The notes beneath the pieces were generated by a model that ran no database searches, had not been told where the DNA came from, and saw nothing but the letters and a program-made list of their open reading frames with translations. This document shows positions 1 through 20,564 of a DNA stretch of 64,000 nucleotides, piece by piece. Source of the DNA: a gamma proteobacterium symbiont of Stewartia floridana. Lineage in GTDB: Bacteria; Pseudomonadota; Gammaproteobacteria; Chromatiales; Chromatiaceae. Numbering within the stretch: the stretch's first letter is position 1; each line of letters opens with the position of its first letter. A program made the position numbers and the translations under genes. The stretch lies in the NCBI GenBank assembly GCA_003676145.1, contig NAUB01000022.1, forward strand, positions 62,001 to 126,000, read 5' to 3'.

Positions 1-792
1 CAGTGCCTGTAGGAACCCCCGCTGCTCTTCCAATTCAAGCAGCTTCTCCTGTAATCGCTCCGCCATCAGATCAAAGGTGGAACCGAGTCGGCTGAGTTCA
101 TCTGCCCCCTGCATCTCAACACGGGTTTGTAAATTCCCATCAGTCAACGCCTGACTCGCGTTTTTGAGCTGTTTGACTGGTCTGAGAATATGGCTGTGTA
201 TGAACCACCAGCCACCTGCCAGATTAAGTATCACGATCAGGGATCCGGCACTCATCAGCATCAGCGTGGTGGTACTTACCTTGTGTCTGAGCGAACTGGC
301 GTCGTAGTCGACATAGAGTATGCCGTTGATCGGATTCTGCTCTGCCGGACCATGACACTCTTTGCAGGCTGGCTTGTTGTGCACCGGATTGATGCTGCGC
401 AGCAACTCCTGCTGTGACTCACTCTCTATGAACCGGGTTGTTTGAAGACTCTCCAGATAGGGATTTTCCAGTTTTTTACCGAAATCCCCATCACGACTGC
501 TGAAACGGATTTCACCTGCCGGGTTAGTGATAAAAACCCGCACGATATCCTTCTGCTCCCCGAGCTTTTGCACCATATCACTCAATCCGGGCAGGTCGCG
601 CTTGAGCATGGCGTTCTCCAGGGAGACCTGCAGCAACTTGTTGACCTGATTGGCGGTCTCCGCTCGCGCCCCTTCCAGTTCCGATTGGTAGATCGGTATA
701 TAGAGTAAAAGAAATACCAGGGTGCTTAAGACAAGACCTGATGTGGTACCGAGGATGAATTTTCTATTCAGGCTTTCGTTTATCCAGTTCAT
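1..792 (-). CDS. Haem-c periplasmic sensor protein with HAMP domain (partial)
   Basis: The gene runs off the left edge, leaving 264 N-terminal residues. It starts with ATG at 792. Residues about 12-32 form a membrane helix. A periplasmic domain of about 150 residues follows with one CKECH haem-c motif, the layout of haem-binding periplasmic sensor domains. A second membrane segment (MLMSAGSLIVILNLAGGWWF) leads into a HAMP-like segment (LRPVKQLKNASQAL) and the start of a coiled coil. The output domain (histidine kinase, GGDEF or methyl-accepting) lies outside the window. It is divergent from the secreted protein at 996 and about 1.6 kb from the molybdoenzyme cluster, so it could be the redox sensor controlling them; that is inference. 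Confidence 0.8.
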   Translation of the reverse strand, partial: MNWINESLNRKFILGTTSGLVLSTLVFLLLYIPIYQSELEGARAETANQVNKLLQVSLENAMLKRDLPGLSDMVQKLGEQKDIVRVFITNPAGEIRFSSRDGDFGKKLENPYLESLQTTRFIESESQQELLRSINPVHNKPACKECHGPAEQNPINGILYVDYDASSLRHKVSTTTLMLMSAGSLIVILNLAGGWWFIHSHILRPVKQLKNASQALTDGNLQTRVEMQGADELSRLGSTFDLMAERLQEKLLELEEQRGFLQAL

Positions 793-860
793 CACTTGTA
801 ACAACTCGGTTGCTCAGGATCCGATGTTTTGATTGTAATATTAAAAAAATCCCGTTTTTC

Positions 861-873: not shown

Positions 874-930
874 TGTTTCCAGTGAGAATCCAACGATTCT
901 TTTCTCCTTTTTGCCTCTGATTCAGCCCTT

Positions 931-945
931 TGGCTTGTGTTTTGC
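931..945 (+). promoter_or_regulatory. Sigma-54 (-24/-12) promoter for the gene at 996
   Basis: TGGCTTGTGTTTTGC carries GG at 932-933 and GC at 944-945 with exactly 10 nt between them, the diagnostic spacing of RpoN promoters. Predicted transcription start is near 957, leaving a leader of about 40 nt before the ATG at 996. No competing sigma-70 promoter was obvious. Confidence 0.6.
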
Positions 946-995
946 TCATAAATTGGAAATCTGAACGCCATACCCTATCTGGAGGAGAAGCGAGA

Positions 996-1775
996 ATGAG
1001 AAAAATAAATACAATTTCCGGTTTCCACATCACAATGCTGCTGCTGTGGGTCTTTTTATGGTTACCAATTATGGGCTTAGCGGAACCTGCCAATAGCCTC
1101 GGTGAATCGCTACGCGAATCTCTCCAACAGCAGGGATGGCAACAGTACACTGCTGAGGATGGTAGTGTTATCTATCGACAACCGAAGAAAGATGCGGCGA
1201 CTGACATTCCGTCAGGAAACAGGGAAACAGGCGAGATACGCAAATTTGGAGAAGCACTGCAGAGCCATGGCTGGCAGGTTGAATGGGATGCAGATAACAC
1301 ATTGATCTTAAAACCAGCAACGCCCCCTACCACCTCTGGGAATAACCTGAATCCATCTCAACAGCCCCCCGCAGCTCCTACGCAGACTATGAAAGACGAT
1401 CTACCAAGTGACATGTCAGGTTTTAAATACTGGCATATCGAGCGGGATCAGGGGGGAGCACTACTTTTTCGCCCTGTGGAACTCTCTGCGTTAGAACAGC
1501 AAACCAAAGCAGCGAGAACCATTCAATCGACAGAGTGCCGCATTGATCAATTCCAACTGACCAACGGATCGCTGCCGGTTGATCAGTGGTCAGAAGCACA
1601 GGATGTTGCAAAGCAGTGGCTCAAGACAGAGGGGGTGGCCGGGCTTCAGGTGGGCCGTATCCGTAAGATAAATCGCATCTATCTGGTCAGTATTGTCGGA
1701 GAGTCTGCGCCCTATCCATTGAAACACCAGCTGGTAATTCGTGCTTCCGACGGCTCGGTCATGCTAATTGAGTAA
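996..1775 (+). CDS. Secreted protein of unknown function with three Gly-Trp repeats
   Basis: A 259-residue protein not recognised as a known family. The start at 996 is chosen because GGAGGAG lies just upstream and a signal peptide begins there (hydrophobic MLLLWVFLWLPIMGL, then AEP); the longer reading frame from 930 adds residues unlike a leader. The mature part holds three related short units, around LQQQGWQQYTAEDGSVIYRQP, LQSHGWQVEWDADNTLILKP and FKYWHIERDQGGALLFRP, separated by Pro/Ser/Thr-rich linkers, then a folded C-terminal domain of about 85 residues with a single Cys. It is probably periplasmic. It has its own sigma-54-type promoter and shares an operator motif with the molybdoenzyme operon downstream, so a role in the same response is likely but unproven. 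Confidence 0.7.
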   Translation: MRKINTISGFHITMLLLWVFLWLPIMGLAEPANSLGESLRESLQQQGWQQYTAEDGSVIYRQPKKDAATDIPSGNRETGEIRKFGEALQSHGWQVEWDADNTLILKPATPPTTSGNNLNPSQQPPAAPTQTMKDDLPSDMSGFKYWHIERDQGGALLFRPVELSALEQQTKAARTIQSTECRIDQFQLTNGSLPVDQWSEAQDVAKQWLKTEGVAGLQVGRIRKINRIYLVSIVGESAPYPLKHQLVIRASDGSVMLIE

Positions 1776-2328: not shown

Positions 2329-2343
2329 TGGCATAACCCTTGC
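2329..2343 (+). promoter_or_regulatory. Sigma-54 (-24/-12) promoter of the Met-rich/molybdoenzyme operon
   Basis: TGGCATAACCCTTGC has GG at 2330-2331 and GC at 2342-2343 with 10 nt between, and matches the RpoN consensus (TGGCA...TTGC) well. Predicted transcription start is near 2355, about 46 nt before the first ATG at 2401. The whole run of genes to 9569 is on this strand with short gaps and may be one transcription unit. Confidence 0.7.
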
Positions 2344-2400
2344 GTTGTAACAGATGCCAACCCGTACTGATAACAATGACGAATCGAGGAGGGTTTTAGA

Positions 2401-2685
2401 ATGCGGCTGTTAGCTACTGCCTGCACCGGTCTGTTTGCATTACTTCCACTACAGCTCATCGCGGGGTATCCCGTAGCTGGTCTAGAGCCTTCAAAACGGC
2501 CAATCAACGCACCGGTCATCACACAGGTATCGCGTGATAAGGCTTGGTACCAATCATCCTTGACAGGTGTTGAGCAACCCTACCCCAGGAGTCTCCACTT
2601 CCTTGACAATCAAGGTAACTGGTACACGCCTTTCACCCGGCCCGGAATGACAGGTCCCTATGATATTCGGCAATGGCATCAGTAG
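2401..2685 (+). CDS. Small secreted protein, first gene of the molybdoenzyme cluster
   Basis: A 94-residue protein with a strong ribosome site (GAGGAGG) before ATG 2401. An N-terminal signal peptide (MRLLATACTGLFALLPLQLIAG) is followed by a short mature part rich in Pro, Tyr, Trp and Arg, including LDNQGNWYTPFTRPGMTGPYD. No family was recognised. It is the first gene after the sigma-54-type promoter and precedes the Met-rich protein by 110 bp. Position suggests a periplasmic or surface partner of that protein; the function is unknown. Confidence 0.65.
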   Translation: MRLLATACTGLFALLPLQLIAGYPVAGLEPSKRPINAPVITQVSRDKAWYQSSLTGVEQPYPRSLHFLDNQGNWYTPFTRPGMTGPYDIRQWHQ

Positions 2686-2795
2686 CGTTGGTATCAGACT
2701 TAGAACCAAGTTCAATTGATGTGGCGACTACAAAGCAGTGAACGGTTCTTTTATTTAAAGGTTATAAAAATTTACTACAACTTGAGGCGAAAATT

Positions 2796-3539
2796 ATGAA
2801 AATTATTCGAATGCCAAACCTGAAAGGAGTGATCAAAGCGATGGGGATGGTCGTAGCACTTGCTGTTGCCCCACTCGCTAGCGCAGGCATGTCCGGTATG
2901 GGTGGCATGTCCGGTATGAGTGGCATGGGCGGTATGGGCGGCATGTCCGGTATGAGCGGCATGGGTGGCATGTCCGGTATGAGCGGCATGGGCGGCATGT
3001 CCGGTATGAGCGGCATGGGCGGTATGTCCGGTATGAGCGGCATGGGCGGCATGTCCGGCTACTTCAAGATTACCCCCCAGGGACAGATTTTCTTCTACCC
3101 AGCTAGCGGTATGAGCGGCATGTCCGGTATGAGCGGCATGGGTGGCATGTCCGGTATGAGTGGCATGGGTGGCATGTCCGGTATGAGTGGCATGGGTGGC
3201 ATGTCCGGTATGGGTGGCATGTCCGGCATGGGCGGTATGTCCGGCATGGGCGGCATGAGCGGTATGTCCGGCATGGGCGGCATGAGCGGTATGTCCGGCA
3301 TGGGCGGTATGTCCGGTTACTTCAAAATCACTCCCCAGGGACAGATCTTCTTCTACCCGGCTAGCGGTATGTCTGGCATGAGTGGCATGTCCGGAATGGG
3401 CGGCATGAGCGGAATGTCCGGCATGGGCGGCATGAGCGGAATGTCTGGCATGGGTGGCATGAGCGGCATGTCCGGGATGGGTGGCATGTCCGGAATGTCA
3501 GGTATGGACGGCATGTCAGGTATGAGTGGCTGGCGTTAA
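2796..3539 (+). CDS. Secreted methionine-rich triplet-repeat protein
   Basis: A 247-residue protein with a signal peptide (through about residue 31, ending LAVAPLASA). The rest is Gly-Met-Ser/Gly triplets, so nearly every third residue is Met. Three triplet blocks are separated by two identical 16-residue linkers (YFKITPQGQIFFYPAS, coded at 3060-3107 and 3318-3365); the protein ends in GMSGWR. No Cys or His is present in the repeats. No named family was recognised. Exported Met-rich peptides are known as oxidant sinks repaired by methionine sulfoxide reductases (MrpX with the YedY-type MsrP in Azospira) and as copper binders; either could apply. Its place directly before a cytochrome c and a DmsA-like sulfoxide-reductase-family enzyme favours the first, as inference. 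An AAAGGAG-like site lies farther upstream; ATG 2796 is retained because the signal peptide follows directly. Confidence 0.8.
   Translation: MKIIRMPNLKGVIKAMGMVVALAVAPLASAGMSGMGGMSGMSGMGGMGGMSGMSGMGGMSGMSGMGGMSGMSGMGGMSGMSGMGGMSGYFKITPQGQIFFYPASGMSGMSGMSGMGGMSGMSGMGGMSGMSGMGGMSGMGGMSGMGGMSGMGGMSGMSGMGGMSGMSGMGGMSGYFKITPQGQIFFYPASGMSGMSGMSGMGGMSGMSGMGGMSGMSGMGGMSGMSGMGGMSGMSGMDGMSGMSGWR
2888..3530 (+). repeat. In-frame tandem repeats encoding Gly-Met-Ser/Gly
   Basis: Three blocks of 9-nt-based tandem repeats (about 2888-3059, 3108-3317 and 3366-3530) interrupted by two copies of a 48-bp linker. Gly and Ser codons vary between copies (GGT/GGC/GGA, TCC/AGC/AGT) while the amino acids are kept, so the protein sequence is under selection. 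Copy number is likely to change by slippage, and assemblies may collapse here. Confidence 0.9.
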
Positions 3540-3581
3540 TCGACTGTAGGTAATTGATTTACCCAGTCATAACACTCCCAA

Positions 3582-3599
3582 GAGCGCAGGGATGCGCTC
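3582..3599. other. Small intercistronic hairpin
   Basis: GAGCGC and GCGCTC form a perfect 6-bp stem with a 6-nt loop between the Met-rich gene and the cytochrome gene. There is no T-run, so it is more likely an mRNA-stability or processing stem than a terminator. It could let the Met-rich protein be made in excess over the enzyme. Confidence 0.35.
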
Positions 3600-3656
3600 G
3601 AATCCAATTACTCCAATTTCATATTTTCCAATAGGGCTTCATCTGAGGAAGATCTA

Positions 3657-4448
3657 ATGATTTTACCCATCAGGACCTTGATTCCACTGTTATTACCGTT
3701 GCTGCTATCAATCGATCCGGTGCTTGCCCGTGATATCGGCCCTGAGGATTATGAACGATCACGCTGGCACCCGATTCACTTCAAGCCTGATATCGATAAC
3801 GCAAGCAATGAACAATGTCTCAGCTGTCATCAAGAGATACTTGACAGGAAGGTCCTGAATCAGTCACCAGCAGGCATTACTTCGACAGAAGTTTTGGCCT
3901 GGTATCAAACCCTGTCGACTTATGAAGGAGAGCAGGAGACCTTTCATCGCCGTCATCTGGTGACACCGATGGCAATGGAACTGATGGATTTAAAATGCAA
4001 TACCTGCCACCAGGGTAACGATTTAAGAGAAGAGGCAGCGAACCCTCCAGACCATAGTAACCAGGATCTGACGCTTCGCAAATCGGTCAATCCGGACATC
4101 TGCCTGATGTGCCATGGGGCGATTGCTTACGAGTTGATGGGACTTCCCGCGCCTTGGACGGAGTCTCGAAAAAACTTTCAAAACAACTGCCTTCTCTGTC
4201 ACTCCTATATCCGCACTGAACGGCACCAGGTCAACTATTTGAAAGCGGACGCCATCGAGGCCGCCGGCAAAGCGAATTCAGACGTCTGTTACGGCTGTCA
4301 TGGTGGTCGTCAATGGTATCGCATTGCCTACCCCTACCCCAGGCACCCCTGGAAGAGCATGTCGAGCATCACCCCAGGATGGGCCAGAGATAGACCAACC
4401 GAATCGGAACCCAGGTTCCAGAAAGAGATCCAGCAAGCGGCAAACTAG
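3657..4448 (+). CDS. Periplasmic pentahaem cytochrome c
   Basis: A 263-residue protein with a signal peptide (LIPLLLPLLLSIDPVLA) and no other membrane helix. Five CxxCH haem-c motifs are visible: CLSCH (residue 54), CNTCH, CLMCH, CLLCH and CYGCH, with extra His residues that could be distal ligands. It lies 25 bp before the molybdoenzyme gene. The cluster has no DmsC-type quinol-oxidising membrane subunit, so this protein is the likely electron carrier between the respiratory chain and the exported enzyme. This resembles the use of the decahaem DmsE in Shewanella DMSO respiration, but the haem number and length differ. The specific subfamily is not recognised. Confidence 0.85.
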   Translation: MILPIRTLIPLLLPLLLSIDPVLARDIGPEDYERSRWHPIHFKPDIDNASNEQCLSCHQEILDRKVLNQSPAGITSTEVLAWYQTLSTYEGEQETFHRRHLVTPMAMELMDLKCNTCHQGNDLREEAANPPDHSNQDLTLRKSVNPDICLMCHGAIAYELMGLPAPWTESRKNFQNNCLLCHSYIRTERHQVNYLKADAIEAAGKANSDVCYGCHGGRQWYRIAYPYPRHPWKSMSSITPGWARDRPTESEPRFQKEIQQAAN

Positions 4449-4473
4449 CAACCGCTGACAGTGTGAGGTACGG

Positions 4474-7038
4474 ATGAGTATAGAAAAACTGACCCAGAGT
4501 CTGAATAAGCGATTGAACCTCTCCCGGCGTTCATTTCTGAAATCTGCGGCCGTGGGCGGTGCATCAGTGGCTGCCGGTGGTTTGGTGGAAATGAAGACCG
4601 CCAAGGAGGCCAAAGCATTTGCCTACGAACCCTATCCGACAGACGACCAACTCGAAACAGTGGTAACCAGCTGTGCCCATAATTGTGGCTCCAGGCATAT
4701 GCTGGTCGCGCATAAGTGGAAAGATGTCATCGTACGTCTCTCCACAGACGATGGTCGTTACCAACGGGATGGCCATTTCGGTAAGGACGATAACGAAGAA
4801 CCACAACTGCGAGCCTGCCTTCGAGGGCGCTCCTATCGGCAACGGCTCTACTCTGCTGAACGTCTGCTCTACCCGATGATGCGGGTTGGCAAGCGGGGTG
4901 AAGGGAAATTCAAGCGCGTCTCATGGGATGAGGCCCTGACCCATGTAGCCAGCAAAATGGTCGAGATCAAGGACACTTACGGTCCGACTGCTCTGGTGGA
5001 TCAGAGTTATGCGGGTGCCTCCTACGGGGTGCTTCATAAATCCGATCAGATCGAGGGTCTGCTGGGTCGTTTTCTGGGCATGTTTGGCTGTCGAACAAGC
5101 TCTTGGTCGGTACCCTCCTACCAGGGAACCACCTTCAGCTCGCGTATGACCTTCGGCACCATCGAGGATGGCAATGAGGATGATACCTTCGCCCATTCGA
5201 AACTGATGATCATGTGGGGTTGGAATCCTGCCTACACCTTCCACGGCGGCAATACCTTCATGTATATGCGCATGGCTAAGCAGCGTGGCTGTAAGTTTGT
5301 CTTGGTCGACCCCCAATATACCGACTCTGCAGCAGCCTACGATGCCTGGTGGATTCCGATTCGACCGAATACGGATGCCGCCATGATGGCCGGGATGGCC
5401 CACTATATTTTCACTAACGATCTGCACGACCAGGAGTTCATCGACCAGTTCTGCCAAGGTATGGACGCCGGGACGATGCCTGAGTGGGCCAAGGATAAAG
5501 AGAACTTCAAGGACTATATCCTGGGCAAATATGACAATGAACCCAAAACACCGGAATGGGCTGCGGAAATATGCGGTGTGCCAGCTGAAGACATCATCAA
5601 GCTGGCGGATATGTATGCCCGCACCAAACCTGCCGCACTGAAGGCATCATGGGCACCGGGAAGAAACGCCTACGGTGAACAATACAACCGTATGGCTGCA
5701 GCCCTGCAGGCGATGACCGGGAATATCGGCATCCTCGGTGGCTGCGCTGAAGGTGTGGGCAAGGCCTGGCATGCCGAAGCGGTAGCCTACCCGTACGATC
5801 AATACTCGAATATCTGGTTTCAATCCATCAAATCTGATCGCTGGGCTCACTGTGTACTCAACTATCCGAATGTAAAAAGAGAAGAGATCGGACTGTGGCC
5901 CCGGCAGGACGATACCGACGGACAGATACCCAATATCAAAGGCATCTTCTGGCAGGGCTCCGATTGGTTCAATCAACTTACCAATATCAATAAAGAGATT
6001 GAGGCGATCAATAAGCTGGAACTGGTGGTCTGCATGGACTCAACCATCACTCCCTCCGGCTTGTATGCCGATGTTCTGCTACCCATAGCCACGCACTTTG
6101 AGCGCCACGATGTAGCCCTGCCCTGGTATAAAGGACACTACTACATTCATCGCCCCAAGGTTATTGAGCCGATGGGAGAATCGAAAACCGATTTTCAGGT
6201 TTTCACTGAACTCGCCTACCGAATTGGTGGCAATGTTTTTGGGCAGGCCTTCAATCCAAAAGCAAACCGCGACTACTTTCACATCAATGACAATGTGGAT
6301 GAGGCCTACCTGAAGGAGTGGTGGGATCAGAAAGTGATTGGTCATCAGCATGTGGATATGTCCTGGGATGAGTTCAAACAACGAGGCGTCTATAAATTCA
6401 AACTCGACCAACCGCACGTTGCCTTCAGGGAACAAATAGAGAACGGGAAAGCGTTCCAGACTCCCTCTGGCAAGATTGAAATACTGGCCTCACAACTGGC
6501 ACAGATCACCGACTGGAAGAAAACCATGTATGGTTATGAGATCCCCTACATCCCTAAATGGATCGAGCCGTGGGAGTCGCTGAACAGTCCAAAGACCAGT
6601 GAATTTCCTTTTCACCTGATCTCACCCCATCCTCGTTGGAGAACCCACTCCATATTCAACAACTGCAGCTGGTTACGTGAGACCTATGAACAAGAGGTGA
6701 CCCTGAATGCCGCCGATGCAAAACAACTCGGTATTAGAACCGGTGATACAGTTGAAATCTGGAACGACCGTGGCCGGGTTGTGGTACCGACCTATGTTAC
6801 AGAACGCTGCATGCCAGGAGTGGCGGTACTGCACGAGGGAGTATGGATCGATCTGGACTCTGAGGGTGTCGACCGGGCGGGTAACCCGGACATGTTGACA
6901 CTGGATGAGCCAAGTCCAGCCGGAGCATTTGCCTACAACACTGTTTTATGCAACATCAAGAAAACGGATCTGGAGCATCGGCCTGGCTGGGACCAGTTGG
7001 CCACATCCCGAGCACATGTGTTTAGGCGTGACCTTTAG
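4474..7038 (+). CDS. Tat-exported DmsA-like molybdopterin oxidoreductase, catalytic subunit
   Basis: An 854-residue protein starting with a twin-arginine signal (SRRSFLK, residues 17-23). It aligns along its length with E. coli DmsA: QLRACLRGRS (residues 111-120), KRVSWDEAL, a middle molybdopterin-guanine-dinucleotide-binding domain, and a C-terminal dinucleotide-binding domain (WNDRGRVVVP). The Mo ligand is probably the Ser in SVPSYQG, by alignment with the DmsA DYSSAQ region. The N-terminal cluster motif is unusual: Cys67-x3-Cys71-x3-His75 ... Cys115, whereas DmsA has Cys at the third position. Likely reaction is oxygen-atom transfer on a sulfoxide or N-oxide in the periplasm; the substrate is not known. 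An oxidising role (for example dimethyl sulfide or another reduced compound) cannot be excluded in a sulfur oxidiser. Confidence 0.85.
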   Translation: MSIEKLTQSLNKRLNLSRRSFLKSAAVGGASVAAGGLVEMKTAKEAKAFAYEPYPTDDQLETVVTSCAHNCGSRHMLVAHKWKDVIVRLSTDDGRYQRDGHFGKDDNEEPQLRACLRGRSYRQRLYSAERLLYPMMRVGKRGEGKFKRVSWDEALTHVASKMVEIKDTYGPTALVDQSYAGASYGVLHKSDQIEGLLGRFLGMFGCRTSSWSVPSYQGTTFSSRMTFGTIEDGNEDDTFAHSKLMIMWGWNPAYTFHGGNTFMYMRMAKQRGCKFVLVDPQYTDSAAAYDAWWIPIRPNTDAAMMAGMAHYIFTNDLHDQEFIDQFCQGMDAGTMPEWAKDKENFKDYILGKYDNEPKTPEWAAEICGVPAEDIIKLADMYARTKPAALKASWAPGRNAYGEQYNRMAAALQAMTGNIGILGGCAEGVGKAWHAEAVAYPYDQYSNIWFQSIKSDRWAHCVLNYPNVKREEIGLWPRQDDTDGQIPNIKGIFWQGSDWFNQLTNINKEIEAINKLELVVCMDSTITPSGLYADVLLPIATHFERHDVALPWYKGHYYIHRPKVIEPMGESKTDFQVFTELAYRIGGNVFGQAFNPKANRDYFHINDNVDEAYLKEWWDQKVIGHQHVDMSWDEFKQRGVYKFKLDQPHVAFREQIENGKAFQTPSGKIEILASQLAQITDWKKTMYGYEIPYIPKWIEPWESLNSPKTSEFPFHLISPHPRWRTHSIFNNCSWLRETYEQEVTLNAADAKQLGIRTGDTVEIWNDRGRVVVPTYVTERCMPGVAVLHEGVWIDLDSEGVDRAGNPDMLTLDEPSPAGAFAYNTVLCNIKKTDLEHRPGWDQLATSRAHVFRRDL

Positions 7039-7055
7039 TCCTGGAGGAGAGATCG

Positions 7056-7721
7056 ATGACAAGTAAACAAGACAAGGCCAGGATTAAAGCCGCGGTAAAA
7101 CGCCGTAAGCGTGAGACCTACACACCGGTTGTCCCGGATAAGCAGCTTGGATTTGTGCATAACAATGTGGACTGTATCGGCTGCCGGGCCTGTGAAATCG
7201 CCTGTAAAGACAAAAACGGCCTGTCGGCAGGGCCAAGATTCAGACGGGTTCAATATATCGAAGGTGGCACCTATCCGGACGTCTATGCCTATAAGGTCAA
7301 TATGTCCTGCAACCATTGCGAATCACCCGCCTGTCTTCCCACCTGCCCTACCGGGGCGATCTTCAAACGCAAGGCGGATGGCATCGTCGATATCGATTCG
7401 ACCCTATGTATCGGTTGTCGGCGTTGTGAAGCGGCCTGTCCTTTTGGTGCACCACAGTTCGATCCAGGCGACAATATCGTCAAGAAGTGCAATATGTGCG
7501 TTGACGAGATCGAAGCGGGACGTAAACCGTATTGTGTTATGGCGTGCATGATGCGGGTGCTGGACATCGGATCCATCGATGAAATCTGGAGAGGCAGTCT
7601 GGAGACTGTGGCAATCGGTCCCGCAGACAAAGTCTCAAAACAAGTCAAGAATATGGCCAACATTGAGCTGACCAAACCATCGATCGGTTTTGTGGCGCAC
7701 AGCAAAGGTAAAGTCAAATAA
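7056..7721 (+). CDS. DmsB-like four-cluster ferredoxin subunit
   Basis: A 221-residue protein with four Cys groups for [4Fe-4S] clusters: CIGCRACEIAC, CNHCESPACLPTC, CIGCRRCEAAC and CNMCVDEIEAGRKPYCVMAC. This is the arrangement of the electron-transfer subunits of DMSO-reductase-family enzymes (DmsB is about 205 residues). It has no signal of its own and would be exported with the Tat-bearing catalytic subunit. A GGAGGAG ribosome site precedes ATG 7056, 17 bp after the catalytic gene. The stop overlaps the next start (TAATG), so the chaperone is translationally coupled. Confidence 0.9.
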   Translation: MTSKQDKARIKAAVKRRKRETYTPVVPDKQLGFVHNNVDCIGCRACEIACKDKNGLSAGPRFRRVQYIEGGTYPDVYAYKVNMSCNHCESPACLPTCPTGAIFKRKADGIVDIDSTLCIGCRRCEAACPFGAPQFDPGDNIVKKCNMCVDEIEAGRKPYCVMACMMRVLDIGSIDEIWRGSLETVAIGPADKVSKQVKNMANIELTKPSIGFVAHSKGKVK

Positions 7722-8494
7722 TGAATCAACAGGCTGATCCGAACCACGAGACGAATAAAACGCAGATCAAAAGCTTTTTACAAGCGATAGCGGGTGACGT
7801 GTTGATGCTGACCCGCTTACACGCCAGGGAACCGGATACGGCACTGCTTGAGCTATTGGTGGAGTATGAATTCCCCAACACCATGGCTCTGAACCTGGTC
7901 AGTGACGAGGGTAAACAGGCCAGCCAGTTCATGCGGCATGTGGTTGAAACCATGCCTTCACAGTTCGATGATGAGTATCTTGATACGCTGGCGGCAGACT
8001 TTGCAGATATCTATCTGAATCATAGCCTGCAGGCTTCGCCACTGGAATCCGTATGGATCGATGAAGAGAAGCTGACCTGTCAGGAGAGCATGTTTCAGGT
8101 TCGAGCCTGGTATGAGAGCTATGGCCTGCAAGCGGAAAACTGGCGAGTCCGCCCAGATGATGACCTGGTATTGCAACTACAATTCATCGCTCACCTGTTC
8201 TCGATCTCTGATTCGATAGAAGAACTCGAAGATGTTGCACGATTCATGGATGAGCACCTACTGCGCTGGCTTGGACAGTTCTCATCGCGAGTGGCCCATC
8301 GTTCTGCAACACCCTACTACTCAGGTATCGCACTATTGACCGGGGCTTATTGCGAAGAACTCAGAGATCTCATCGCTACGATCACCAATCTGCCCAGGCC
8401 ATCCGCGGAGGAGATCGATGAGAGAATGAAGCGTGACACGATGAGTCAAGAGGTGACATTGAGTTATATGCCAGGTATTGGCCCCGCAGTATAG
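7721..8494 (+). CDS. TorD/DmsD-type redox-enzyme maturation chaperone
   Basis: A 257-residue all-helical cytoplasmic protein with TorD/DmsD-family features: a long N-terminal helical part, the acidic DDDLVLQLQFIAHL segment, and the C-terminal LRWLGQFSSRV...TPYYSGIA region. Such chaperones bind the Tat signal of their molybdoenzyme and hold it until the cofactor is inserted. It overlaps the DmsB-like gene by one base and is almost surely dedicated to the enzyme at 4474. Confidence 0.85.
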   Translation: MNQQADPNHETNKTQIKSFLQAIAGDVLMLTRLHAREPDTALLELLVEYEFPNTMALNLVSDEGKQASQFMRHVVETMPSQFDDEYLDTLAADFADIYLNHSLQASPLESVWIDEEKLTCQESMFQVRAWYESYGLQAENWRVRPDDDLVLQLQFIAHLFSISDSIEELEDVARFMDEHLLRWLGQFSSRVAHRSATPYYSGIALLTGAYCEELRDLIATITNLPRPSAEEIDERMKRDTMSQEVTLSYMPGIGPAV

Positions 8495-8504
8495 TACGCC
8501 TGAT

Positions 8505-9569
8505 ATGCCTTTTCTCAAGGATTTGTTCAATCGGGTACGCGAGGAAGAGAAGTTACCGGTTGTCGACCCGGAGCGATGTGTCCATAGCCTGATTGAGATC
8601 GCCAGCTGTTCGTCCTGCGTGGAAGTCTGTCCTACAAAGGCCTGGGCCCTGGATGACGAAGCTCTGCTGTTCGATGCGTCTGTTTGTGATGGTTGCGGGC
8701 TCTGCCTACCCATCTGTCCTGAAAGCGCCATCTCGATCCAATATGAGATTTTATGTGGCGACTTGGATCTGGGAAAGATCGTACTCTCCACCTGCGAAGA
8801 GACTGGAATGAAGGACAACCAAGGCGTGCTGCCCTGCATTCACATGGTCAGTCTCAACGACATACTCAATCTCTACAACCAAGGCTATCTACAATGGGTG
8901 ATTGCTACTGGCAACTGCTCAGAGTGCCAGCGTGGTTGTAATACTACGCTTTTTGAGCGAATACAACAGGTCAACACTGCATTGGATGAGGAAGGACTTC
9001 CTCTCATCGATTATCACGCAACTGATTTCATATCATGGCAGCGTATCCAGTCACTGATGGAGGATACCCCACCATCTGCAAGCCTCAGCCGAAGAGCTTT
9101 CTTAAGAGGCGTCCTGGAGAACAGCGTCAATAACCCAACCAGTCACTTTAAACAGAAACAACCAGCAACCACTGCTATTCCACCAGGTAAGTTAATGCCG
9201 AATCAGAACAGAACAACAATCTGGCCCTACGTACCTCAGATAAACAGCAAGCTGTGCAATGGTTGTGACGCTTGTGTCAATACCTGCCCACACAATGCGA
9301 TCGGACTCGTCACCGATAATGACAACTTACTATATGAAATTCGACCTGAAGCCTGCACTGAATGCGGTATTTGCCGAGATGTATGTGAGAAACGGGCGAT
9401 CACTATCATGAAGTGGACAAAACAGCCGCAACGGACGCTTGCATTGAATACCTTTACATGTGCAAGCTGTGGCAACCCTGCCCATTCACCTTCTGATGAT
9501 CACCGGTCGCTATGCAGAATTTGTGAGCAAGTAAACCACCAGAGTAACCTTTATCAGGTTATGGATTAA
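8505..9569 (+). CDS. Polyferredoxin accessory protein of the molybdoenzyme cluster
   Basis: About 354 residues with several ferredoxin-type Cys groups: CSSCVEVCP and CDGCGLCLPICP near the N terminus, CNGCDACVNTCP and CTECGICRDVCE near the C terminus, and further CxxC pairs (CSECQRGC, CASCG, CRIC). A middle segment reads LSRRAFLRG, like a Tat motif but internal, so it is probably not a signal. NapF-, NrfC- or DmsG-like accessory ferredoxins with several clusters are common beside periplasmic Mo enzymes, where they assist cluster assembly or electron supply; the family is not pinned down. The start is uncertain: ATG 8505 is preferred, with a TTG at 8478 that would overlap the chaperone gene as the alternative. 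Confidence 0.75.
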   Translation: MPFLKDLFNRVREEEKLPVVDPERCVHSLIEIASCSSCVEVCPTKAWALDDEALLFDASVCDGCGLCLPICPESAISIQYEILCGDLDLGKIVLSTCEETGMKDNQGVLPCIHMVSLNDILNLYNQGYLQWVIATGNCSECQRGCNTTLFERIQQVNTALDEEGLPLIDYHATDFISWQRIQSLMEDTPPSASLSRRAFLRGVLENSVNNPTSHFKQKQPATTAIPPGKLMPNQNRTTIWPYVPQINSKLCNGCDACVNTCPHNAIGLVTDNDNLLYEIRPEACTECGICRDVCEKRAITIMKWTKQPQRTLALNTFTCASCGNPAHSPSDDHRSLCRICEQVNHQSNLYQVMD

Positions 9570-9715
9570 CAGTCCGTCGGCTGCAGGACTCATCTATACA
9601 GGACCTAAGCCAGACAAATATAACAAGTTCATAACATTTTCCCCCATACTACAGACTTAGCGTCTTTCCTATGCTCTACTTGGACTCAAGGTGCAGTAAG
9701 TGGAAATCTAAAATT

Positions 9716-11311
9716 ATGATCAATTGGCATAAACCTGCTCGCTTTTTTCTCCATATTGAAGTTGCCTTATTCTTGATGGTGGCACTCGTCACTACCAGCT
9801 GCTCATCTGAAACTCCAGAACCTGAACAACCCACAGTCAATCAGAGTACGCCCAGCAACCAAAATAGGAATTTTGCTCCTGGTTTACCCTGGTTGAATGT
9901 TGTACGCCCGCTTACTACTGATGATATGTTAGGTAAGGTCGTTATTCTCGATTTCTGGACATATGGCTGTATCAACTGCATCCACGTACTGGCAGATCTG
10001 AAAAAACTGGAGGAGAAGTATGGCCATCAATTACTGGTAATTGGCGTACATACCCCAAAATTCGATAATGAGAAAAACCTGCAAACCCTGAAAAAAATCG
10101 TGATCCGATACGCTGTCGATCATCCTGTAATCAATGATGTGAATGGTTTACTCGCCAGCTATTACGGCATGCGCGCCTGGCCCACACGGGTGTTGATCGA
10201 CCCCAAAGGCGAGGTTCTTGGCAAGGTGGTAGGAGAAGGCCGATATGATCAGATCGACAATAAGATTTCAGAACTTCTAACCCAGCATAAGGCAGTTCTT
10301 AACCCCTCCCCGATACCTATAAGGCTGGAGCGTGAAGAAGATGACACCACACTCCTGTCAGCACCGGGAAAAATCACTGTGAACGCTGACTCTATTGCGA
10401 TAAGCGATTCCCTGAACAATCGAATTATCGTTACCAGTCACAGTGGTAAGATTAAATATATCATAGGCTCAGGTGCCACAGGAAGACTGGATGGCAGCTT
10501 TACCAATGCCAGTTTCAACTCACCACAGGGAGTGCTGTTCAACGATAATCTTATCTATGTTGCAGATACCGGCAACCATCTGCTCAGAGTAATAGACCTC
10601 GAACACAAAAGCGTCTCTACGATTGCCGGAAACGGAACCTTGGAGCGAAAACGCAGTGGTGAATTTGATGCCAAGTCAATCGGCATGGCCTCTCCTTGGG
10701 CGCTCGCTCGATTAGACGACAGATTGTTTGTTGCAATGGCTGGTAGCCATCAGATATGGGTCTACAACATCAGCAACAAGCAGCTAAGTCGTTTCGCAGG
10801 ATCAGGGCGCGAAGGCATCCTGGATGGTGATGTAGATCAGGCAACCTTCAGCCAACCGAGCGGGCTGAGTATTCGCAATAACTGGCTTTATATCGCTGAT
10901 TCAGAAGCTTCGGCAATACGACGCATTGACCTGAAAAAGAATCAGATCGAAACACTCGTGGGAACTGGATTGTTCGACTTTGGTGATAAAGATGGCGATC
11001 TCCAAAGCGCCAAGTTACAACATGTACTCGGTATCTCGGTGAAAGACCAAAAAGAGATTTACATCGCTGACACCTACAATCACAAACTCAAACGGATAGA
11101 CCTTGAGTCATCTTCTGTGGAATCCCTGATTGGTGATGGCAAGCCGGGATTTCTTAGCACTATAGATGGTCAGCTGCAGTTAAATGAACCAGCAGGCTTG
11201 GCACTTTATAAGGACAAACTCTATATCACGGACACCAACAATGATCGCATCGTTGTATATGACATCGGCAGTGGTAAAACGATGCTTTTGAACATTCAAG
11301 CTACCCGCTAA
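9716..11311 (+). CDS. Exported thioredoxin-like protein with NHL beta-propeller
   Basis: About 531 residues. The N terminus is a hydrophobic leader followed by TTSC, a possible lipoprotein site. A thioredoxin-fold domain (about residues 45-165) contains GCINC as the redox-active CxxC and the cis-Pro segment AWPTRVL. The rest is an NHL-repeat propeller with recurring units such as SPQGVLFNDNLIYVADTGNHLLRVIDL. This pairing is that of the NHLRC2 family. The start at 9716 is chosen over 9671 because the leader begins there. It sits 146 bp after the polyferredoxin gene on the same strand. A thiol-redox protein beside a sulfoxide-reductase-family system fits periplasmic redox repair, but co-transcription is not shown. 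Confidence 0.75.
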   Translation: MINWHKPARFFLHIEVALFLMVALVTTSCSSETPEPEQPTVNQSTPSNQNRNFAPGLPWLNVVRPLTTDDMLGKVVILDFWTYGCINCIHVLADLKKLEEKYGHQLLVIGVHTPKFDNEKNLQTLKKIVIRYAVDHPVINDVNGLLASYYGMRAWPTRVLIDPKGEVLGKVVGEGRYDQIDNKISELLTQHKAVLNPSPIPIRLEREEDDTTLLSAPGKITVNADSIAISDSLNNRIIVTSHSGKIKYIIGSGATGRLDGSFTNASFNSPQGVLFNDNLIYVADTGNHLLRVIDLEHKSVSTIAGNGTLERKRSGEFDAKSIGMASPWALARLDDRLFVAMAGSHQIWVYNISNKQLSRFAGSGREGILDGDVDQATFSQPSGLSIRNNWLYIADSEASAIRRIDLKKNQIETLVGTGLFDFGDKDGDLQSAKLQHVLGISVKDQKEIYIADTYNHKLKRIDLESSSVESLIGDGKPGFLSTIDGQLQLNEPAGLALYKDKLYITDTNNDRIVVYDIGSGKTMLLNIQATR

Positions 11312-16414: not shown

Positions 16415-17296
16415 GTGAGTGTCAAGACATCGTTGAAAAGGCTAAGCTTTCTACTCATGCTCAGCTATTCACTTTCCAGCTATGGACTTGAGCTTAAATG
16501 GGCTGGATGTGGCATTACCAAAAAGGCGTTCATGGCCGAACTGGCTTCTGCTTATGAAGAGAAAACCGGCATCAAGATAGAGCTGGAAGGCGGCGGCGCT
16601 ACCAAAGGTATTCAGAAAGTCATTTCGAAGTCCGTCGATGTAGGCGGTTCATGTCGCTTCCGTGTGAATGATGACGATGCCTCCCGAGCCTCGATCAAGT
16701 TCAATCCAGTCGCTTGGGATGCCTTGACCGTTGTGGTCAATCCAGCCAATCAACTCGATTCGATCTCCCTGGAGTCACTGCGTGACATCTACACCGGAAA
16801 AATTACCAACTGGTCTCAACTGGGCGGTCCTGACCAACCATTGGAACTCTATGTGCGTGAGGGAAAGATATCCGGTGTCGGACACATGATTCGACAGTTG
16901 TTGTTCAACGACCCACAGATGAGTTTTGAGGGGAGTGAGTTCTTCCCCTCTTCGGGGCCACTGGAAAAAGCGATAGAGAAGAATCCCAATGCAATTGGTA
17001 TGACCGGGATCAGCAGTGCTCGTAAGCGGAACTTCAAGATCCTTAAACTGGATGGTAAGGAACCCAGTTTTGAGAATATCAAAAATGGCTCCTATACCCT
17101 CTATCGGCCCCTCTATATCGTAAGCAACCGAGAGAGTGAAAACTACGCCGAGGTGAAACGCTTTCTCAACTTTACACACAGTCGGGTAGGACGCGACATC
17201 ATGCGTGATAATGGTGTTGTACCCTATCTTGAGGCGGTTTGGTTGAGCAGTAATCTGCAGCGTCAGTGGTCTGACTCAAGAAAGATAAAAAATTGA
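16415..17296 (+). CDS. PstS-like periplasmic substrate-binding protein
   Basis: A 293-residue protein with a signal peptide and the phosphate-binding-protein-like fold: GGGATKGIQKVISKSVDVGG near the N terminus, the segment SLRDIYTGKITNWSQLGG typical of PstS-type proteins, and FLNFTHSRVGRDIM near the end. Start is GTG 16415 with GAGG upstream. No ABC permease or ATPase genes are nearby, so it may be a stand-alone binding or sensor component. The ligand is an anion by family, but phosphate itself is not assured. It lies 250 bp upstream of dsrA on the same strand. Confidence 0.8.
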   Translation: MSVKTSLKRLSFLLMLSYSLSSYGLELKWAGCGITKKAFMAELASAYEEKTGIKIELEGGGATKGIQKVISKSVDVGGSCRFRVNDDDASRASIKFNPVAWDALTVVVNPANQLDSISLESLRDIYTGKITNWSQLGGPDQPLELYVREGKISGVGHMIRQLLFNDPQMSFEGSEFFPSSGPLEKAIEKNPNAIGMTGISSARKRNFKILKLDGKEPSFENIKNGSYTLYRPLYIVSNRESENYAEVKRFLNFTHSRVGRDIMRDNGVVPYLEAVWLSSNLQRQWSDSRKIKN

Positions 17297-17549: not shown

Positions 17550-18812
17550 ATGAAGTCTCACCCCACACCTATGCTCGATCAGCTGGAGAGTGGCGAATGG
17601 CCCAGCTTTGTCACCGGCATCAAGAGATTACGTGACACCCATCCCGATCGCCGCATACGGGAAACCACCAACGACCTGCTGGGACAATTGGAATACTCCT
17701 ATGAGACCCGTAAAGGGTACTGGAAAGGTGGTACGGTCAGTGTTTTTGGCTATGGCGGCGGAATCATTCCCCGCTTTTCAAGTGTTGGCGATCGGTTTCC
17801 GCAGTCGAAGGAGTTTCATACACTGCGTGTGCAACCCCCTGCTGGAAACTACTACACCACCGAGATCTTGCGCCAACTGGCAAACAGCTGGGAGAAGTGG
17901 GGCTCGGGCCTGGTCACCTTTCATGGTCAGACAGGCAACATCATGTTCATTGGTGCGAATACAGATAACACCCAGCACTTTTTCAATGAGATCAATGAAT
18001 ACGGTTTTGACTTAGGCGGCGCTGGACCCTGTGTACGAACGGCTCAGTCCTGTGTGGGATCGGGGCGCTGCGAGCAATCCTGTGCCAACGAACATGAGAT
18101 CCATCGGCGCTTGGTCAACAACTTCCTCGACGAGATGCATCGGCCGGCGCTACCGTATAAATTCAAGTTCAAGATTTCCGGCTGCCCAAACGACTGCATG
18201 AATGCCATCGAACGTGCCGATTTTGCAGTAATCGGTACCTGGCGTGACGATATGCAGGTGGATCAGACAGAAGTGAAACAGTATCTCTCTGATAAGGGCC
18301 GGCAATACATCATCGATCACGTCATCAGCCGCTGCCCCACCCACGCCCTCTCACTGACTGATGGGGATAAGCTGGAGGTGGAGAATGCGGACTGTGTGCG
18401 TTGCATGCACTGCCTGAATGTGATGCCCAAGGCGCTCTCCCCCGGTAAGGATAGAGGCGTCAGTCTGCTGATTGGCGGCAAACGCACCCTGAAGATCGGG
18501 GATCGTTTCGGCACCATGATGATTCCGTTCATGAAGCTCGAGAATGAGGCGGATTATGAAAAACTGGTGGCGCTGGCAGAGGAGACCATCGACTTCTTTG
18601 CTGAAAACGCCCTCGAGCATGAACGCATCGGAGAGATGATCGAACGTATCGGCCTGGTCAATTTCCTCGAAGCACTGAATATCGATGTGGATCCCAATAT
18701 GATCGTGCACCCACGGGAAAACTCCTACGTGCGCACGGACCAGTGGGATGAAGAGGCCCGCAAGTGGTTTGAACACCACCCACAGAACGACCCGTCAGCA
18801 GATGTGGCTTAA
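17550..18812 (+). CDS. dsrA: Dissimilatory sulfite reductase alpha subunit, reverse (oxidative) type
   Basis: A 420-residue protein matching DsrA of sulfur oxidisers such as Allochromatium along its whole length (for example RKGYWKGGTVSVFGYGGGII and TFHGQTGNIMFIG). Cys ligands for the sirohaem-[4Fe-4S] centre are seen in CVGSGRC and CPNDC, and the inserted ferredoxin domain in CVRCMHC. With DsrB it forms the cytoplasmic alpha2-beta2 enzyme that oxidises persulfide sulfur (delivered by DsrC) to sulfite. AGGAGG precedes ATG 17550. dsrB follows after 11 bp. The usual dsrEFHC and dsrMKJOP genes are not adjacent. Confidence 0.97.
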   Translation: MKSHPTPMLDQLESGEWPSFVTGIKRLRDTHPDRRIRETTNDLLGQLEYSYETRKGYWKGGTVSVFGYGGGIIPRFSSVGDRFPQSKEFHTLRVQPPAGNYYTTEILRQLANSWEKWGSGLVTFHGQTGNIMFIGANTDNTQHFFNEINEYGFDLGGAGPCVRTAQSCVGSGRCEQSCANEHEIHRRLVNNFLDEMHRPALPYKFKFKISGCPNDCMNAIERADFAVIGTWRDDMQVDQTEVKQYLSDKGRQYIIDHVISRCPTHALSLTDGDKLEVENADCVRCMHCLNVMPKALSPGKDRGVSLLIGGKRTLKIGDRFGTMMIPFMKLENEADYEKLVALAEETIDFFAENALEHERIGEMIERIGLVNFLEALNIDVDPNMIVHPRENSYVRTDQWDEEARKWFEHHPQNDPSADVA

Positions 18813-18823
18813 GGAGAGATCTG

Positions 18824-19900
18824 ATGGCAAGTGCAGAACGACGAATTCCGATTGAAAGTGGCTGTCCAGATGGTATTCAGTATATGCATCCCGTGATGCG
18901 TAAGAATTTCGGCCACTGGCGATACCACGAAGATTCCAGGCCGGGAGTGCTTCGTCATGTGGCGGAGAGTGGTGATGAAATCTGGACCGTGAGGGCGGGC
19001 ACCCAGCGAATTCTGGATCTCTTTACGCTGCGTAAACTGTGCGAGATCGGAGATCAGTTCGCGGATGGTTATGTCCGTTTTACAATCCGCAGCAATATCG
19101 AGTTTATGCTCTCCGGCGGGGGTCGTGTGGCGTCATTGATCGAAGCCTTGGAATCGAACGGATTCGTGGTTGGCGGTACGCGAAATTCGGTTGCAGCCAT
19201 CTCCCATACCCAGGGTTGGCTGCATTGCGATATACCCGCCACGGATGCCTCAGGTGTGGTCAAATCGATGATGGATCAGCTGGTGGATGAATTTCGCCAA
19301 TGGAACATGCCCAACCGGGTACATATCACCACCTCCTGCTGTCAAATCAATTGCGGAGGCCAGGGGGATATCGCGATCAATATCCAACACACCAAACCCC
19401 CCAAAATCGATCATACCCAGGTGGCAAACGTGTGTGAGCGGCCATCGGTGGTAGCGCGTTGCCCTGTGGCGGCAATACGGCCTGCAATGGTCAATGGCAA
19501 ACCCTCACTGGAGGTCGATGAGAGAAAGTGTGTCTGTTGTGGCGCCTGTTATCCACCCTGCCCGCCAATGCAGATCAATGACCCGGAACACTCAAAGCTG
19601 GCGGTATGGGTTGGCGGCAATCACTCGAATGCCCGGGGCCGGCCCACATTCCAAAAACTGGTGGCGGCCGGCATTCCCAACAATCCACCACGCTGGCCAG
19701 AGGCCACGGCCATTGTCAAAAGGATTCTCCAGACTTATCAGACCCATGCCAAAGACTGGGAGCGGATCAATGATTGGGTGGAGCGTATCGGCTGGCCTCG
19801 ATTCTTCGAATTGACTGGGCTGCCTTTCACCAAATTTCATATCGACAACTGGAGAGGGCAACAGAAGAGCCTGAATGCCTCCACGCATCTTAGGTTCTGA
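18824..19900 (+). CDS. dsrB: Dissimilatory sulfite reductase beta subunit, reverse (oxidative) type
   Basis: A 358-residue DsrB. Sirohaem/cluster motifs include TTSCCQINCGGQG, and the ferredoxin domain carries CVCCGACYPPCPPM. The family segments NRVHITTSCCQINC and WERINDWVERIGWPRFFE are present. It is translated from ATG 18824 after AAGGAGAG and is co-transcribed with dsrA. After it the strand is empty apart from one small secreted-protein gene, then the polysaccharide flippase gene on the other strand. Confidence 0.97.
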   Translation: MASAERRIPIESGCPDGIQYMHPVMRKNFGHWRYHEDSRPGVLRHVAESGDEIWTVRAGTQRILDLFTLRKLCEIGDQFADGYVRFTIRSNIEFMLSGGGRVASLIEALESNGFVVGGTRNSVAAISHTQGWLHCDIPATDASGVVKSMMDQLVDEFRQWNMPNRVHITTSCCQINCGGQGDIAINIQHTKPPKIDHTQVANVCERPSVVARCPVAAIRPAMVNGKPSLEVDERKCVCCGACYPPCPPMQINDPEHSKLAVWVGGNHSNARGRPTFQKLVAAGIPNNPPRWPEATAIVKRILQTYQTHAKDWERINDWVERIGWPRFFELTGLPFTKFHIDNWRGQQKSLNASTHLRF

Positions 19901-20069: not shown

Positions 20070-20270
20070 ATGAATAAACTGCTGATTGCTACTCTGCTTC
20101 TTGCAACTACCGGCCTGGTCTCTGCCAGCACAAGCGAAACCCTACAACCGAAGAGTGCTACCGGCTTCGACGCCTTTTATGGCATCGAAGATTACAATGA
20201 CACCTTCTATGGGGATGTCTACGAGCAGAAGACCGCTGAACAGACCCCTGTGGTCCACTTCGGCAAGTAA
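20070..20270 (+). CDS. Small secreted peptide downstream of dsrAB
   Basis: A 66-residue protein with a clear signal peptide (MNKLLIATLLLATTGLVSA) and a 47-residue mature part rich in Thr, Asp, Glu, Tyr and Phe (FDAFYGIEDYNDTFYGDVYEQ). No family was recognised. A strong hairpin follows 20 bp after the stop, and an AT-rich region upstream probably holds its own promoter, so it is a free-standing gene. Its role is unknown. Confidence 0.7.
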   Translation: MNKLLIATLLLATTGLVSASTSETLQPKSATGFDAFYGIEDYNDTFYGDVYEQKTAEQTPVVHFGK

Positions 20271-20291
20271 TCCTCGCACTTTTCATATAGA

Positions 20292-20322
20292 CAAACACCG
20301 GGCCCAAAAGGTCCGGTGTTTG
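20292..20322 (+). terminator. Hairpin terminator after the small secreted peptide
   Basis: CAAACACCGG and CCGGTGTTTG form a perfect 10-bp stem around an 11-nt loop. The tail is moderately T-rich. Confidence 0.7.
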
Positions 20323-20564
20323 CACTTATATCTTTATATTTTGCTTTACCAAAACCGGATCAACCTGGCAGTTAGCCTAAGCAGTAAGCGGAAAAACACC
20401 TGATCGATTTACAGGGAAGCGAATCTCACGATGATGATGGTTACCAGGCTGACCACCCACTACCGCTTGGGTAGAAACTTTTAGAGGATCCTGCTCCAAC
20501 TTGTGGTGTAGAGCATCAAAAGAGACTTCTTTTATTGACTGAATGTATCAGTATGTTGCAGATT

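Follow-up and report, generated by a model that had tools for sequence, protein, structure and literature searches.

Gene content of the locus

The window analyzed here is the whole stretch of 64,000 nucleotides at positions 62,001 to 126,000 of contig NAUB01000022.1 (G000:C13 in our numbering), from the 4.55 Mb genome of a gammaproteobacterial symbiont of Stewartia floridana. Near its start, an operon pairs a secreted protein with methionine (Met) at every third residue, hereafter the Met-triplet protein, with a molybdoenzyme belonging to a sulfoxide-reductase-like clade of its own, a pairing that is apparently undescribed. The genes follow each other on a single strand in the order sec94, Met-triplet open reading frame (ORF), pentahaem cytochrome, DmsA-like subunit, DmsB-like subunit, TorD-type chaperone, polyferredoxin, and thioredoxin/NHL protein (Table 1). 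On the 5' side of the operon lies an exported protein of 281 residues, followed by the divergent genes, partly beyond the window, of a sensor kinase and a sigma-54 activator of NtrC type. An earlier note, made from the letters of this DNA and its ORFs, had described the gene set, its one-strand order and a sigma-54-type promoter, and sequence and domain scans confirm every part that it named where it had been placed. The module is bigger than that description, since it also includes the divergent haem-motif kinase, the NtrC-type regulator and, less regularly, the 281-residue exported protein.

Table 1. Features of the operon and its 5' flank, in window coordinates unless a contig is given
Feature	Position	Strand	Remarks
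Membrane sensor histidine kinase, 5' part	1..804	-	622 aa (amino acids) in full; remainder outside the window
NtrC-type sigma-54 activator, 455 aa	outside the window; kinase and activator genes together G000:C13:59572-62804		adjoins the kinase; domain matches
Exported 281-aa protein, called DUF281 here	930..1775	+	family without a name; related gene in other loci
Sigma-54-type -24/-12 promoter element TGGCATAACCCTTGCG	2329..2344	+	motif score
sec94, small secreted protein, 94 aa	2401..2685	+	conserved family, alignment
Secreted Gly-Met-Ser/Gly triplet protein, 247 aa	2796..3539	+	tandem arrays, two YFKITPQGQIFFYPAS inserts
Exported pentahaem cytochrome c	3657..4448	+	exactly five CxxCH
DmsA-like molybdoenzyme catalytic subunit, exported by twin-arginine translocation (Tat)	4474..7038	+	Tat signal, Molybdopterin and Molydop_binding domains
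DmsB-like ferredoxin subunit	7056..7721	+	16 Cys, TIGR02951 match
TorD/NarJ-type chaperone	7721..8494	+	Nitrate_red_del and TorD-like matches
Polyferredoxin	8478..9569	+	three CxxCxxCxxxC motifs plus further Cys; Fer4 families
Thioredoxin-like/NHL-repeat protein	9671..11311	+	domain match; at times adjoins the operon

Linkage of the Met-triplet gene with the enzyme clade

Relatives of the enzyme were collected by tblastn (E to 1e-3) from 84,980 species genomes. The best 80 of 419 relatives (78-99% identity) constitute the named loci, and the 44 of these that span at least 14 kb, together with the first 24 kb of the window, the 45 long loci. The Met-triplet gene was followed with a 51-base pattern whose third place permits several residues, among them Ser, Gly, Ala and Thr; it returns 131 overlapping matches in the source genome (two loci combined), and the reversed control pattern returns 0. 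In the family (194 genomes from 61 genera), the enzyme occurs in 52 genomes, the pattern in 55, both in 48 and neither in 135, that is, 135 of the 142 genomes devoid of the enzyme are also devoid of the pattern; the family statistics, Fisher tests included, ignore relatedness. For the 157 genomes with a completeness of 90% or more and a contamination of 5% or less, the counts are 41 for the enzyme, 42 for the pattern and 39 for both, and 27 of the 29 enzyme genera possess the pattern (hand count). The class (274 genomes) gives 13, 14 and 9, respectively, and the phylum (398 genomes) 5 for the enzyme clade, 10 for the pattern and 5 for both, while none of the 26 phylum genomes holding only matches of 45% identity or less has the pattern. 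Every pattern match containing Ser in class and phylum, among the matches listed, comes from a clade carrier; the pattern-only genomes (5/14 in the class, 5/10 in the phylum) have their third position restricted to Gly, Ala or Thr. In the named loci, a Met ORF lies within 4 kb 5' of the enzyme in 69 of 80 cases, and in 34 of 36 when at least 2.5 kb is available 5' of the cytochrome. Six of the 11 named loci without it have less than 800 bp 5' of the cytochrome, and four of the genomes containing the other five (L273, L276, L278, L289, L309) have a Met ORF on another contig. The co-occurrence proposed as a check by the earlier note is thus borne out in 48/52 family genomes, 5/5 phylum-sample genomes and 69/80 named loci; this association is real, old and specific, and it exceeds what that note could know.

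The exceptions on the enzyme side are few in number. Among the four family genomes with the enzyme alone, G084 and G193 are truncated at contig ends, the enzyme gene of G086 is interrupted, and G150 is truly without a Met ORF. In G086 (L151:4690-7998), the enzyme and cytochrome genes are broken into separate match pieces, and a Met-triplet ORF was not found there. Three of the four enzyme-only class genomes (G235, G379, G428) have a Met ORF of diverged type 5' of the enzyme, built of GMYGMRGMGG or GMNGMSGMYGMRG units, and G326 has none. On the pattern side, the Met ORF of the family genomes G067, G074, G075 and G138 stands at a contig end adjoining sec94; in G060, about 4 kb separates a 71-aa ORF from an activator that shares 67% identity with that of the module. 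G127, one of the 55 family pattern genomes, is a false positive: a GMGGMG run lies there within a membrane-transporter-like ORF (G127:C1:704000-718000, L158).

Record titles name the carriers as Thiodiazotropha, Sedimenticola, tubeworm endosymbionts, Thiohalocapsa, Thiothrix, Thiobacillus, Hydrogenophilales, Rhodocyclaceae, Hyphomicrobiales and Thermopetrobacter. The named loci span Alpha-, Beta- and Gammaproteobacteria, and matches in single bins of Desulfobulbus and Clostridia may reflect faulty binning. Some genomes possess a second enzyme copy. Three Thiodiazotropha genomes and G155 contain a diverged second locus that includes its own Met ORF, and 4 of the 11 second copies with upstream DNA have their own Met ORF nearby (L059, L060, L062, L114). 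Outside these 11, the second copy of L061 starts at the contig end. In L135, L136 and L137, the second copy directly follows the first operon.

The Met-triplet protein

The protein comprises 64 Met and 86 Gly in its 247 residues, and exhibits an apparent Sec signal (judged by eye). When the triplets of 76 Met ORFs (that of the window plus those of the named loci) are phased by Gly alone, position 2 is Met in 98.3% of 2929 triplets, Gln being the chief exception, and position 3 varies between Ser (55%), Gly (32%) and Asn (8%), followed by Gln, Glu, Lys, Asp and Ala. These ORFs were picked for Met periodicity, which biases the absolute Met percentage upward; more telling is how the positions differ from each other. 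The arrays use all four Gly codons and both Ser codon families and hence do not derive from recent slippage. A chance repeat or slippage artefact is ruled out by this codon mix, the phase conservation and the reversed-pattern control. This difference argues that Met itself is the residue retained by selection, and three types of fusion agree with it: a Met array joined to a class I cytochrome c (G050; L161:7187-7837, - strand), the C-terminal part of the 281-aa protein within a Met protein (G314, L220), and a sec94 with a Met-rich tail (G235, L217).

Non-repeat inserts recur among the Met ORFs (YFKITPQGQIFFYPAS, QWVWVPS and WVCTQWT), and Pfam reports a weak collagen-like match. Elsewhere, a Met-triplet ORF remote from the enzyme (L162:6507-8846) adjoins an OmpA-family protein, the N-terminal part of which bears a weak resemblance to the 281-aa protein.

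The enzyme clade

The closest named enzymes are records of Candidatus Thiodiazotropha, with up to 99% identity. An ortholog occurs in 21 of the 22 genus genomes, the source genome included (89-100% identity), and four of them contain a second copy (76-77%). With E cut-offs of 1e-120, 1e-100 and 1e-70 for family, class and phylum, respectively, the matches listed split in two groups, at 72% identity or more (lowest 70-71% by tblastn) or at 45% or less. A rapidly built tree of 79 rows drew 64 from the 80 named loci and one from the window, together with 10 rows of second copies or class relatives and 4 of DmsA-like outgroups. It unites the clade with 100% support in the Shimodaira-Hasegawa-like approximate likelihood ratio test (SH-aLRT), on very long branches; its root is placed at the midpoint, and several deep forks are unsettled.

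All 80 named loci share an N-terminal cluster motif, C67-x3-C71-x3-H75...C115, with His at the place of the third Cys, where the 4 outgroup rows all have CxxxCxxxC. Ser215, also present in 80/80, aligns with the Ser that we take to be the Mo ligand of DorA, a role assigned by alignment only. Tyr179 (80/80) aligns with the Tyr of the DorA SYGW motif; the motif itself reads S/A-Y-A-G in 80/80 named loci (S in 78), Gly standing for Trp. The top PDB sequence matches are dimethyl sulfoxide (DMSO) and trimethylamine N-oxide reductases. The score of 624.5 bits lies below the cut-off of TIGR02166 (DmsA/YnfE, 777.7), and those of BisC, TorA and the other listed NCBIfam families are not reached either, the single-subunit families being far off. 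The Molybdopterin and Molydop_binding domains, together with the aligned Ser, place the protein in the broad DMSO-reductase superfamily. As judged from these comparisons, the enzyme is a member of this superfamily, yet outside DmsA/YnfE, because its score falls under the cut-off and its cluster motif differs. A plain annotation as "DMSO reductase" is insufficient, as the Met gene accompanies this clade and not the other matches in the phylum sample.

Partner genes, regulation and neighborhood

The pentahaem cytochrome and DmsB accompany the enzyme in 80/80 named loci, TorD in 78/80 and the polyferredoxin in 62/80. Pfam matches the cytochrome with Cytochrome_C7 and NapC/NirT-like families. The 16 Cys of the DmsB-like subunit are compatible with four clusters, and its TIGR02951 score (189 bits) is below the cut-off of 214. 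Neither Pfam (E to 0.001) nor NCBIfam (E to 1e-5) assigns the sec94 protein to a family; its alignment has 14 invariant columns over 36 rows, and it was found in 35/45 long loci and in 34 of the 36 named loci with at least 2.5 kb 5' of the cytochrome. Less constant members of the long loci are a relative of the 281-aa protein (19/45), a class I cytochrome c encoded between the DmsB and polyferredoxin genes (16/45), and the thioredoxin-like/NHL protein (13/45), whose membership in the module is uncertain. The DmsC membrane anchor is absent from the Pfam results for the proteins of the window operon.

The promoter element starts 72 bp 5' of the sec94 ATG. Scored against the -24/-12 consensus, elements matching in at least 9 of 12 positions precede 59 of 65 sec94 homologues (3.0% in mononucleotide shuffles), and those matching in at least 10 precede 49 (0.5%); the 65 upstream regions include close relatives. 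A kinase of about 620 aa is present in 33/45 long loci and the activator in 32, the 33rd being the window, where the activator stands just outside. Their domains are HAMP, PAS, HisKA and HATPase_c, and Response_reg/Sigma54_activat, respectively. The CxxCH motif is present in 32 of the 33 kinases aligned at full length, and GAFTGA in 31 of the 36 aligned activators. In the second locus of the source genome, which encodes a 77% identical enzyme, a CRP-family gene (L059:4960-5817) lies between the Met-triplet ORF and the cytochrome, so that the two copies look differently regulated.

Further downstream, a dsrAB-type sulfite reductase pair (PF01077, PF03460; window 17550-19900) lies on the operon strand, 8 kb 3' of the module. 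It is preceded by a PBP_like_2 protein (16415-17296) and directly followed by a short ORF (20086-20403) with an apparent signal, a Met-containing stretch MTPSMGMS and no Pfam family.

A putative methionine redox cycle and its alternatives

The DNA itself shows which genes are present, their conserved linkage, the retention of Met, the promoter, the regulator genes and the superfamily of the enzyme, and from these we infer the substrate, the direction of electron flow, the oxidant, the kinase pair driving the promoter and the signal that it perceives. On balance, we lean slightly toward an operon encoding an extracytoplasmic Met redox cycle, in which the enzyme would reduce Met sulfoxide (MetO) within the Met-triplet protein, an exported oxidant sink. 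The Gly-Met-X protein would be exported by Sec, and its dozens of exposed thioethers would react with oxidants to yield sulfoxides, which the Tat-exported DmsA-like/DmsB-like complex would turn back to Met. The pentahaem cytochrome c would feed this complex in place of a membrane DmsC anchor, and respiratory electrons would thereby recharge the sink. The membrane kinase, with its periplasmic c-haem motif, and the NtrC-type activator would turn the operon on from the sigma-54 promoter. A Met/MetO cycle appears to be the simplest reading, because the array is kept for Met, exported, and co-inherited with a private enzyme of the S/N-oxide-reductase type.

The earlier note had suggested such a cycle, not built on MsrP, and its interpretation is partly supported. 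Met conservation, the Ser aligned with the Mo ligand and the S/N-oxide-reductase neighborhood of the enzyme speak for it, as does the source genome, where PF00174 (the MsrP fold) has no match; the MsrP model is also absent from 12/12 genus genomes tested. Its premise that some enzymes of the superfamily reduce MetO holds for DorA, which acts on protein-bound MetO and reaches about 90,000 per M per s with oxidised beta-casein as the substrate (PMC7402097). A general replacement of MsrP was rejected, since MsrP is as common in family genomes with the clade (16/40) as in those without (17/40).

That equality also weighs against the cycle, and several other observations do the same. The source genome contains four MsrA, three with apparent export signals (by eye), so extracytoplasmic MetO repair does not need the present enzyme. 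All 80 named loci have Gly in place of the DorA Trp, which PMC7402097 cites as necessary for sulfoxide reduction. Seven of the 11 second copies of the enzyme lack a nearby Met ORF of their own (L135, L136, L137, L149, L150, L152, L216); a Met ORF stands beside the first copy in all 11 genomes, and our leaning is unchanged by this count because each such genome still has a Met gene. The Met ORF is on another contig than the enzyme in G034, G036, G041, G050, G076, G088 and G118, apparently owing to contig breaks at the repeat in some and to true rearrangement in others, such as G041. G150 possesses sec94, cytochrome and enzyme with no Met ORF between them and no pattern genome-wide, and G326 has neither a Met ORF on its 6.7-kb contig nor the pattern genome-wide. 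Lastly, the nearby dsrAB-type pair and the carriers, largely sulfur oxidisers by name, would also suit a substrate from sulfur metabolism.

This last point leads to the most serious alternative, clearly less probable than the Met/MetO cycle, in which the enzyme would serve respiration by reducing (or dehydrogenating) a small sulfur compound, for instance DMSO, or would take part in inorganic sulfur oxidation, and the Met protein would be an accessory, e.g. a sacrificial protector of the complex. The superfamily, the DmsB/TorD set, the dsrAB-type pair, the sulfur-oxidising carriers and the second copies devoid of their own Met ORF are all consistent with it. In lucinid symbionts, dmsAB genes have been reported 5' of soxY-S1c with dsrAB near, and DMSO was proposed as electron acceptor (PMC11237559). 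The reading given there is DMSO or organosulfur metabolism, the word "methionine" is absent from the main text, and its dmsAB may or may not be the present locus. Such a substrate leaves unexplained why the Met-triplet gene goes with this clade and with none of the 26 phylum genomes that have only DmsA/TorA-like matches.

More tentatively, and with rather low probability, the Met-triplet polymer might be a rechargeable, protein-bound electron acceptor, oxidised to the sulfoxide in the presence of oxidants and, under low oxygen, used for respiration by way of the cytochrome-fed DmsAB-like complex. If so, oxidising power would be stored outside the cytoplasm as a solid-phase sulfoxide, and the cell would respire its own secreted protein.

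It is unlikely that the Met protein forms a polymer at the surface or in the periplasm, or the coat of a sulfur or selenium particle, with a Gly-X-Y-like repeat, and that the enzyme makes or consumes the element of the particle as a selenate- or sulfur-type reductase. The weak collagen-like match, the recurring inserts and the inclusion of DMSO/selenate reductases in TIGR02166 would fit, whereas structure alone would not require Met in 98% of positions, other residues serving in a Gly-X-Y coat, and the carriers include Hyphomicrobiales and Thermopetrobacter, which are not known as globule formers. Least likely of all is a copper or silver sponge, with a redox complex that handles metal redox or is merely co-regulated: Met at i and i+3 throughout resembles the MxxM spacing of known Cu(I) Met motifs, but a relative of Mo S/N-oxide reductases would be an odd partner, and in the gene groups present in at least 5 of 45 loci, where not all of the four small non-core groups were identified, no copper gene was recognised.

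If the Met/MetO cycle is true, an exported Met-sulfoxide oxidant sink arose by a second route, from unrelated parts and wired to respiration, and would probably be under haem-kinase/sigma-54 control of its own. Since lucinid clam and tubeworm symbionts are among the carriers, it could bear on life at oxic-anoxic boundaries or on resistance to host oxidants. It also offers a testable substrate for an enzyme clade currently labelled "DMSO reductase", and one of the carriers, Thiohalocapsa halophila DSM 6210 (locus L279), is kept in a strain collection.

Comparison with known systems

A search of the open-access literature, with subscription papers mostly not covered, found no publication on the pairing of a Met-triplet protein with this enzyme, and the accessible parts of PMC7464077 and PMC11578231 contain nothing on it.

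Among known systems, the single-subunit S/N-oxide reductases DorA, TorA and BisC give the best PDB sequence matches and share the Tyr of SYGW. In contrast with them, the present enzyme has an extra N-terminal Fe-S motif, a separate ferredoxin subunit, and SYAG for SYGW. The E. coli type DMSO/selenate reductases DmsABC and YnfEFGH have the same combination of catalytic subunit, four-cluster ferredoxin, TorD-type chaperone, Tat signal and Ser at the aligned Mo-ligand position. The present enzyme differs from them by its identity of 45% or less to the non-clade matches listed, scores below the TIGR02166 and TIGR02951 cut-offs, and His for the third Cys; the operon has no DmsC in its Pfam matches, with a cytochrome c and the Met protein instead. 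The Shewanella DmsEFABGH system, which performs extracellular DMSO respiration, also combines a multihaem cytochrome with DmsAB and a TorD-like chaperone. The present cytochrome returns a weak DmsE-family match (32.7 bits, cut-off 192.2) and has five haems versus ten; a Met-triplet protein is present here, and the Pfam results for the operon revealed no beta-barrel partner of the outer membrane.

The closest likeness in principle is with MrpX and YedYZ/MsrPQ of Azospira and other perchlorate reducers, where an exported Met-rich peptide and a periplasmic reductase are proposed to form a Met/MetO cycle that defends against hypochlorite (PMC4623255). An exported Met-rich protein encoded with a reductase is found here in kind in 69/80 named loci, which does not imply homology, and this Met protein is a long Gly-Met-X array, unlike MrpX. 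The electron carriers are a pentahaem cytochrome and ferredoxins instead of the membrane protein YedZ, and regulation would involve sigma-54 and a haem-motif kinase instead of SigF/NrsF. The catalytic subunit belongs to the DMSO-reductase superfamily and not to the MsrP (YedY) fold. The present system is hence no member of the MrpX/MsrP system, which it resembles in principle.

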